From assembly GCF_020804225.1 (NCBI RefSeq), contig NZ_WJBI01000009.1:13083-57064 (forward strand): a stretch of 43,982 bases of DNA. Reading direction: 5' to 3'. Every line of letters starts with the position of its first letter. The first letter of the stretch is position 1. The notes under the pieces were generated by a model. The model worked only from the letters and a program-made list of their open reading frames with translations, was not told the DNA's origin and ran no database searches. Of this stretch, positions 1,513 to 3,550 are shown one piece after another. Both the position numbers and the translations under genes were made by a program. The stretch comes from Methanosarcina sp. DH2. GTDB lineage: Archaea; Halobacteriota; Methanosarcinia; Methanosarcinales; Methanosarcinaceae.

Positions 1513-1712
1513 TTGCGTTCCCACCTAGATCTTGGAAGTTCCGAATACTTATAAGAGATGCTTTTGTTTTGGGAAGAGGTTTGAGGTACTTGACTCATAG
1601 GCTGTGAGTTTTTGTATTATCTCTTTACTTGTGGGGTAGTTTTTCGGAGTGGATGTTGAAGTAGGTCTTTTGGAATAGGTGTTTGCTAGTTGGTGTTGTA
1701 GTGAGAACGCAA
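1513..1712. repeat. TTGCGTTC/GAACGCAA element, copy 1
   Basis: About 200 bp bounded by TTGCGTTC (1513-1520) and its exact inverse complement GAACGCAA (1705-1712). Copy 2 lies at 2982-3152. Shared blocks include TCTGGAAGTTCC-like, GGGAAGAGGTTTGAG, ATCTCTTTACT and GAGAACGCAAATTATACTA. Similarity continues some 50 bp beyond the right end into a TATATAATATTTT stretch. No open frame is conserved between the copies. The unit could be a MITE or a structured RNA. Confidence 0.75.
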
Positions 1713-1993
1713 ATTATACTATGCACCCACTGTATATAATATTTTCAACAACTAATATTGTTCTATCTTTATATCGGTTAGTGCATTCATATAACATTTC
1801 ATTACTGGTATAACGCCTTACTTTATATATGTCATATGCAGTTTCTCCTCCCGTCTGAAGCGTCATTAGAATTATATTTATTTGGATTTTTAAAAAACAA
1901 TATATAGTACTTGACCCAATTCTTCTTTAAGATTTGATGTCAAATGATTTTTTTTAATTTTGATGTCGTTCCAAAAGCTGAGGAGGAAGAGGT

Positions 1994-2428
1994 ATAAAAA
2001 AACTTAATTTAACTTTGGTGCTGATTATTGGGATATTGATCACAGCTAACTCTGCTCATGCCATACCACATGGGACTATAATAAAGGAAGGTGCACTGCT
2101 ATATCCAGCAGGTCCCTATTTCATAGAGGATCCTCTTCTATTAAGTTCTGAAAATTACGGAGATAATAATACGTCGCAAATATCAAACGAATCTTTTGAA
2201 ATAACCTCTCCTGAAAAGGAACGCCTGTTTTCCTATAACAATAGTTACAACGTTACTTCAGGGAATCTGAATACTGGAGATCTCTGGATCTGCCCATTAA
2301 ATCTTTTTTCTATCTATTATGGCCGTAATACGGAAATGCTATATCCGGATTTTTCTCTTCTTTGCTGCTCTACTTCTTCTTTCAGCCTGATGGCTTTATC
2401 CACTCCACTCAATGCTACTTCTCGCTAG
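1994..2428 (+). pseudogene. Secreted-protein gene remnant with ATA at the start position
   Basis: The frame encodes KKLNLTLVLIIGILITANSAHA, a clear signal peptide with cleavage after AHA, then a mature part beginning IPHGTIIKEGALLYPAGPY. A strong AGGAGGAAG ribosome site (1981-1989) ends 4 bases before an ATA codon at 1994, exactly where a start codon is expected. The next usable starts, TTG at 2015 and GTG at 2018, would cut into the signal peptide. Past about 2290 the composition changes (LWICPLNLFSIYYG..., Cys/Ser-rich) and looks like out-of-frame reading. The simplest view is an exported Methanosarcina protein truncated or frameshifted at its C-terminus, and possibly at its start. The family is not identified. 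Confidence 0.5.
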
Positions 2429-2479
2429 CCGTCATAATTTCTGTCTATAAAATTGTGTAAATTCAAATTACACCAAAAT

Positions 2480-2925
2480 ACTCAAATGAAGAAAAAGAAG
2501 CTTGAAAAAGCAGAAAAAGCAGAAAAAACGATAAAAATAGGCATAGAAAAAAGTATTTTTCAGGTAGAATCCAATTCTATTTTGTTTATACTCTGTCAGT
2601 TTTTCTAACGTCTCTAATTTTTATCCGTTTTCTATCGTTCTTATTTCTGGGAACTCTTTTCTCTTCTTCTCTCTTATATCTTTTTTGGAAAGACTATCTA
2701 CTTTGTCGAGAGTGACAAAAACGGCATAGAATGGATAATAATGTTCCACGGGTCAGAGATACTGTAGTTTAATCCTCCGGAGTGAATTCCACTACTAATA
2801 TCCATAAATTAGTCCTCTTGAGCGAAGCGAAGCGGAGCGAAAAGGACGCGTACTCCCGAGACGCAATTCGGGCGAGACGCAATTCGGGCGAGACGCAATT
2901 CGGGCGAGACAAATTGAGGCAGCGA
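2480..2925. repeat. Dispersed hairpin repeat, long copy 1
   Basis: About 430 bp that aligns in the same orientation with 32195-32620. Landmarks in order: GATAAAAATAGGC, AAAAGTATTTTT, TTTTTGGAA, GTCGAG(A/C)GTGACAAAAACGGC, GGTCAGAGATA, and ATAAATTAGTCCTCTTGAGCG followed by AGCG-rich sequence and GAAAAGGAC. It ends in three 16-bp units of GACGCAATTCGGGCGA (2869-2917). GTCCT...AGGAC and CCCGA...TCGGG can pair as hairpins. No coding potential is seen. Confidence 0.75.
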
Positions 2926-2981
2926 TTTCGAGCCACTATCCATGAAAAAATCTTACAGATCGGTTTTATTTTTAAAAGAGG

Positions 2982-3152
2982 TTGCGTTCCCATCAAAGTA
3001 TCTGGAAGTTCCTAACTGTAATAAGAGATTTTTGTTTGGGAAGAGGTTTGAGATATTTGTGGGTTGAGAGGTTTATTTCATCTCTTTACTGTGGAGTAGG
3101 TTTTGGAGTAGGTGTTTGTTTGCTAGTGGAGTGTTCAGAGATGAGAACGCAA
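2982..3152. repeat. TTGCGTTC/GAACGCAA element, copy 2
   Basis: Second, shorter (171 bp) copy of the element at 1513-1712, in the same orientation. It has the identical 8-bp inverted ends (2982-2989 and 3145-3152). Inside the ends, CATC pairs with GATG where copy 1 has CAC with GTG, so one base pair changed on both sides. It begins 57 bp after the end of the long hairpin repeat. Confidence 0.75.
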
Positions 3153-3550
3153 ATTATACTATGCAGTTATCATATATAATATTTTTAACACCTAATGTTA
3201 GTTTATTATGATATTCTTTATCTTATCCTTGTAATTTTAGTTTATTAGTTTAATATTATATCATTAAACTAATGCAATTGCATATATCTCAGAATCTATC
3301 TAAATACATGAGGTCTCTAGCTACGGGTTACCCTTATTTTTGAGTTTACCTTATTCTATGGACGGGGTATAGATTTGCTGGTGTATAGATTTATCATACT
3401 TACTTAAATTTTTGTACTTTATGACTTTGCAGATCCCTTACGTTGCAGGTCCCCCATTTCACAGTTTCCTTACTTCGCAGTTTCCTCACTTCGCAGACTT
3501 CAGACTATACAGCCTGCTGGATTTTAGATCGATTTATTCCGGATACATCT
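3153..3550. other. Intergenic, no gene seen
   Basis: AT-rich spacer downstream of the vWA gene (minus strand). It contains a short direct repeat, CAGTTTCCTTACTTCG / CAGTTTCCTCACTTCG, at about 3461-3496. No coding sequence is supported. Confidence 0.5.

Follow-up and report, generated by a model that had tools for sequence, protein, structure and literature searches.

Two repeated elements in a 43,982-nucleotide stretch of the Methanosarcina sp. DH2 genome (here called the window) appear, from comparison with related genomes, to be members of a genuine, genus-wide and multicopy family of structured noncoding RNA genes; to the extent checked, this family as such is new. It is highly probable that each copy represents an independently transcribed, structured noncoding RNA gene on the minus strand, most likely for a trans-acting riboregulator. 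The copies form a gene family with a promoter and terminal pairing, are inherited vertically and are noncoding in character. Archaeal sRNAs of known function are few, and multicopy, genus-wide families of archaeal sRNAs are hardly described in the literature surveyed. All searched species of this methanogen genus, which is genetically tractable and relevant to climate, have the family. Its promoters are uniform, and an alignment of 128 copies and a covariance model are available, so that studies of expression, knockouts and pull-downs of partners can be planned now, and the role of the RNA family in these archaea has become directly testable.

Two probable RNA gene copies in the window

The preliminary description of this region had reported an element which occurs twice in the same orientation. 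Both copies were recovered (1513-1712 and 2982-3152) and are exactly bounded by TTGCGTTC and GAACGCAA. In a pairwise alignment over the whole length, which contains indels, they share interior blocks and differ by about 30 bp in length, in agreement with the description. Including the flanks, the copies are 71% identical (E=1.2e-28), so the match of this pair is far beyond chance. The similarity continues about 45-65 nt beyond the right end and takes in a TATA-like tract that had been noticed there and is indeed present outside both right ends (1733-1748 and 3173-3188), and only about 10-15 nt beyond the left end. This asymmetric extension identifies the minus strand as the sense strand. An RNA on the plus strand was rejected, since promoter, U-tract and G-poor bias all point to the minus strand; folding energies by themselves gave no decision between the two strands. 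No open frame is conserved, as had been claimed: the longest ORF comprises 5-68 aa and differs from copy to copy.

RNA gene copy 1 (locus I-1) was placed at 1503-1712 on the minus strand by the alignment, a match of covariance model R1 (L011:14593-14795) and the promoter and terminator profile. Its predicted transcript runs on this strand from a 5' end at about 1711-1713 to a U-rich tract at about 1503-1512. The closing stem P1 is composed of the 5' strand UUUGCGUUCUCACU (1700-1713, minus) and the 3' strand GGUGGGAACGCAA (1513-1525, minus). The promoter contains a conserved initiator-proximal element, CATAGTATAA, assigned by the promoter profile (1714-1723, minus), and the BRE/TATA element TTGAAAATATTATATA (1733-1748, minus), which is the TATA-like tract mentioned above. 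RNA gene copy 2 (locus I-2) covers 2971-3152 on the minus strand according to the alignment and an R1 match (L011:16062-16235). The predicted transcript, also on the minus strand, has its 5' end at about 3151-3153 and reaches a U-rich tract at about 2971-2981; the two strands of P1 are UUUGCGUUCUCAUC (5' strand, 3140-3153, minus) and GAUGGGAACGCAA (3' strand, 2982-2994, minus). The same initiator-proximal element CATAGTATAA was found by the promoter profile at 3154-3163 (minus), with the BRE/TATA element TTAAAAATATTATATA at 3173-3188 (minus). Immediately past the terminator of copy 2, a 16-nt unit, CGAGACGCAATTCGGG, is present in three tandem repeats (2857-2910).

Promoter and predicted transcript ends

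The upstream regions of 128 copies align position by position and free of gaps. This profile shows an A/T-rich BRE/TATA element (AAAAATATTATATA) at -33 to -20 with fixed spacing and CATAGTATAA at -10 to -1, and directly after the latter the RNA begins with YUUGCGUUCUCAUC. Archaeal promoters have a usual distance between TATA box and transcription start, which was used for placing the transcript start; by this spacing, the RNA is predicted to start within the first bases of the stem. Transcription would accordingly begin on the initial base of P1, about 25 nt past the TATA box. Beyond the stem, positions 0 to +6 are T in 60-89% of the copies, and transcription would end in this U-rich tract beyond P1. 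We infer these transcript ends from the sequence profile. A transcript that starts at P1 and stops just after it would have both of its ends joined and sealed by P1. With a promoter, a U-tract, covarying structure and noncoding character, the copies have the sequence hallmarks of independently transcribed archaeal sRNAs. Upstream of the BRE, at -47 to -40, the 128 copies also have a conserved dyad, TAANATTA, which resembles a binding site and might be recognised by a common regulator.

Structure and covariation of the RNA

In P1 (UUGCGUUCUCAUC/GAUG(G/A)GAACGCAA) the 5' end of the RNA pairs with the 3' end over about 12-14 bp; the predicted start on the first stem bases together with the terminal complementarity would bring the RNA ends into pairing. 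Among 127 distinct copies, P1 is paired in 98.5% of the cells, and two-sided changes affect 5 of the 12 pairs; the covariation of this stem lies above all 500 shuffles and above slid controls. That this covariation is confined to few pairs results from the strong sequence conservation of P1. In thermodynamic ensembles, the predicted mean pairing probability of P1 exceeds 0.8 in 123 of the 128 copies. The overall folding energy of one copy is unremarkable (z -0.30), and the structural case therefore depends on the comparison. The change between CAC/GTG in one copy and CATC/GATG in the other, to which attention had been drawn before, is real. The pair is U-A in 87, U-G in 33, C-G in 4 and another combination in 1 of the 125 copies with letters at this position, a wobble-mediated route with pairing maintained.

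A second helix, P2 (AUCCCUUU/AAAGGGAU versus AUCUCU/AGAGAU), is paired in 88.8% of the cells in 44 copies and shows 8 double-change cells (C-G to U-A), all at one pair. For P1 and P2 together, the cells with two-sided changes outnumber those of all 500 shuffles. The first three bases of P2 overlap P1, so that the two helices can exchange. In copy 2, AUCUCU of the 5' strand of P1 can alternatively pair with the interior AGAGAU as P2. Such a rivalry of P1 and P2 for the AUC(U/C)CU arm might make the RNA a conformational switch. A helix of the middle and 3' part (AAGGGAU with AUCUCUU) was tried as an alternative to P2; it has zero two-sided changes in the 44-copy alignment and is not claimed there. 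A small hairpin, ACUCGCAACCCGUGAGU (ACUCGC...GUGAGU), occurs in many copies. The preliminary description had explained the matching ends by selection on pairing, in either a structured RNA or a MITE (miniature inverted-repeat transposable element). Its first half stands, given the extent of P1 pairing, the compensatory changes, the covarying P2 and the fixed promoter and terminator, and its second half does not.

The RNAs are about 155-235 nt long. Their interior is poor in G (A 39%, C 26%, T 23%, G 11.5%), and in all 128 copies C outnumbers G; in the flanks this bias is slight. CUCUUCC, CUACUCC, UACCUCA and GUUCGGAACUUCCAG are kept far above shuffles, and CUACUCC, CCCCAC, ACACC and UACCUCA are predicted to be mostly unpaired. 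CUACUCC-like motifs are present up to 4 times per copy, mostly once or twice. In two long copies (L131:3765-4039 and L113:3331-3592) a segment with ACCUCAAACCUCUUCCCAAACUAAAA is duplicated internally, indicating that the loop module can be multiplied.

Distribution in the genus and beyond

By BLAST, the DH2 genome itself contains at least six copies, namely the window pair, a tandem array of three on contig C7 and a single copy on C26. A search for further Methanosarcina copies, which had been proposed as a check, gave BLAST matches in 30 of the 31 genomes searched. The covariance model R1, consisting of 38 copies, matches in all 31 Methanosarcina genomes with 1-11 copies each, usually 3-6, and near-complete genomes of the genus in one or two contigs, including G001, contain 3-11 copies each. 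Over 186 genomes of the order, R1 matched in Methanosarcina and in 4 of 4 genomes of a sister genus (g5), which are MAGs (BL5_bin.6/BM5_bin.6); the rest of the order gave noise-level scores only and nothing convincing. A second model, R2 (99 copies), which was run over 112 genomes of the family, showed identical limits of distribution. No match was obtained in plasmid and phage collections, nor in viral contigs, for which the promoter pattern served as the query.

Some weaker candidates were rejected. A marginal covariance-model match in genus g11 lacks the promoter and the full stem, two bacterial MAG contigs with a promoter-pattern match contain no RNA, and at a promoter-like match on C26 (C26:134136) TATA box and closing stem are both absent by eye. 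The highest copy number belongs to a bog Methanosarcina MAG (G018, loci L157-L164) with 11 copies, which are dispersed and diverged and amount to roughly double the usual number.

Comparison with known RNAs

The copies match no Rfam 15 family at the gathering score, nor at E values up to 10, and over the window Rfam 15 yields one tRNA and nothing else at the gathering threshold. The closest described system is the homologous intergenic pair sRNA162/sRNA171 of M. mazei, which has its own promoter and terminator and a length of 191 nt (PMC3510493). M. acetivorans and M. barkeri each have one copy of sRNA162; this RNA lies beside ArsR/MM2442-type genes and folds into three stem-loops in succession, with a linker of 39 nt (PMC3510493). 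Both systems are restricted to Methanosarcina, intergenic and about 190 nt long, with a homologous pair in one genome, promoter, terminator and compensatory changes between copies; unstructured segments are likewise common to both, and in sRNA162/171 such a segment masks a ribosome binding site. In contrast to sRNA162/171, the family described here is multicopy in nearly every genome checked, occupies other loci and has a single terminal stem that closes the whole RNA. It is thus distinct by copy number, locus and architecture as described, a distinction drawn from these features and not from a sequence alignment.

sRNA162/171 is the only homologous Methanosarcina sRNA pair described in the open-access literature searched, in which no description of the family as such was found either; single loci may be contained in the 2009 M. 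mazei list. We give even weight to the possibility that copies have already been catalogued singly among the about 199 intergenic sRNAs reported for M. mazei Go1 (Jager et al., 2009) and were not recognised as a family. A passage of PMC5867862 gives the count as 199 itsRNAs for this strain. The promoters are uniform and several copies are present in every Methanosarcina genome, and dRNA-seq should detect such transcripts. Against prior cataloguing, the one described pair is sRNA162/171 with the single-copy distribution and the three stem-loops given above, and the stem sequence was not found in the text of the open-access Methanosarcina sRNA papers. This question bears on novelty and not on the reading as an RNA.

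Multicopy sRNA families also occur in bacteria. Those of the LhrC, Qrr and CsrB/RsmZ type consist of several paralogues per genome with short unpaired motifs on a common scaffold, as found here; the new family differs from them in being archaeal, in the long terminal stem that holds its ends together and in being unrelated in sequence and without a known partner protein. In the Y RNAs of Ro60 RNPs, the RNA ends form a long stem that closes a large pyrimidine-rich loop, an architecture shared by the RNAs described here. A TROVE-domain protein (Ro60/TROVE, PF05731), however, is absent from the DH2 genome (G000), while a control genome was positive, and the family has no Rfam match.

Proposed role of the RNA

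A promoter of its own, ends that are sealed, loops poor in G, the presence of paralogues and the lack of a constant neighbour fit a trans-acting RNA, and we infer trans action and the type of target from these features. P1 would serve as a stable, nearly invariant handle recognisable by a common protein; the near-invariance of the stem suggests such a shared protein partner. The G-poor interior would expose pyrimidine-rich single strands (ACACC, CCCCAC, CUACUCC, UACCUCA) that are separated by small helices (P2 and ACUCGC...GUGAGU). Paralogues at fixed loci with interiors conserved within each subfamily would most likely be trans riboregulators, which would pair with purine-rich mRNA segments, bind an RNA-binding protein, or both.

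In a crude test for Shine-Dalgarno masking, pairing of the six copies of the DH2 genome with 292 predicted translation starts did not exceed that of shuffled RNA. Two conserved 20-nt blocks of the interior, compared genome-wide as a search for long antisense targets, are complementary only to the RNA copies themselves. Given the negative result for translation starts and the lack of complementary sites, base pairing with mRNA and binding of protein are about equally likely as target modes.

A protein-binding or sequestering scaffold comparable to CsrB, 6S and Y RNAs, in which P1 and the loop motifs are the sites and mRNA pairing plays no part, is a possible reading, although short of a probable one. 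It would agree with a P1 that is nearly invariant among paralogues (84-92% identity between subfamilies) and interiors that have diverged down to 60-69%, with CUACUCC-like motifs that lie far above shuffles and are mostly unpaired, and with the missing enrichment of pairing at translation starts. However, TROVE/Ro60 is absent in the DH2 genome and a candidate protein was not found, and with mostly one or two CUACUCC motifs per copy there is no dense array of sites. A modular riboregulator system can be proposed only tentatively, in which the constant sealed-end handle would bind protein and the paralogue-specific loops would address different mRNAs or proteins.

Conserved loci and inheritance

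In the tree of the copies, subfamilies are resolved in which a genome is typically represented once. These subfamilies are orthologous and syntenic: the paralogue loci are conserved throughout the genus, one of them also in the sister genus. Locus I, which harbours the window pair, is in most genomes a tandem pair beside VWA/BatA-type genes or genes of the opposite side. In about 25 genomes, those of the sister genus among them, locus II has HTH/CobW genes on one side and a radical-SAM gene on the other, and locus III adjoins an FAD-dependent oxidoreductase. Neither a constant neighbour gene nor a defence partner was found across the loci. The riboregulator reading could be replaced by a cis-acting element of the neighbouring genes, i.e., a leader, a 3' element or an antisense RNA, and at locus II the RNA is always upstream of the HTH/CobW genes on the same strand. 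We regard this as very improbable, since the RNA lies downstream of the VWA gene at locus I and converges with the oxidoreductase at locus III, which leaves no common orientation; in addition, the RNA has its own promoter and U-tract, and the neighbour genes vary by locus.

Orthologous copies are 79-90% identical in their interiors and 69-82% in the promoter, and the 200 bp downstream are at the random (shuffle) baseline (51-53%). Orthology, synteny and conserved interiors indicate inheritance and selection on the gene instead of transposition, and the copies thus appear to constitute a family of noncoding RNA genes that is passed on by vertical descent. The second explanation of the preliminary description, a MITE, or any other nonautonomous mobile element with the inverted ends as transposase sites, shares with this family inverted terminal repeats, several copies (11 of them dispersed in G018) and a noncoding interior, but has a negligible probability, because the unit is asymmetric and not bounded symmetrically by inverted repeats, its conservation extending about 45-65 nt past one inverted end where that stretch is the promoter, the interior is strongly conserved, orthologous copies occupy the same loci and no variable sites in the genus and the sister genus, and viral, plasmid and phage collections have no match.

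The RNA array at locus III often abuts type I restriction-modification genes (L009 8584-12491; L113, L124, L131 and L152), and this locus may mark an integration hotspot. The neighbourhood of locus I in the window comprises at its left edge (1-130) the 3' end of an IS200/IS605-type TnpB-like ORF, which lies upstream of the RNA locus and continues at L011:12200-13200. Between the RNA copies, an ORF on the plus strand (2015-2428) has a signal-peptide-like start and no Pfam family; it recurs in 11 genomes with variable length. At 432-626 on the plus strand, a 65-aa treble-clef zinc-finger protein is encoded (PF23477, E=6.8e-18), which adjoins the RNA pair in several species, where it was seen in a shifted frame.
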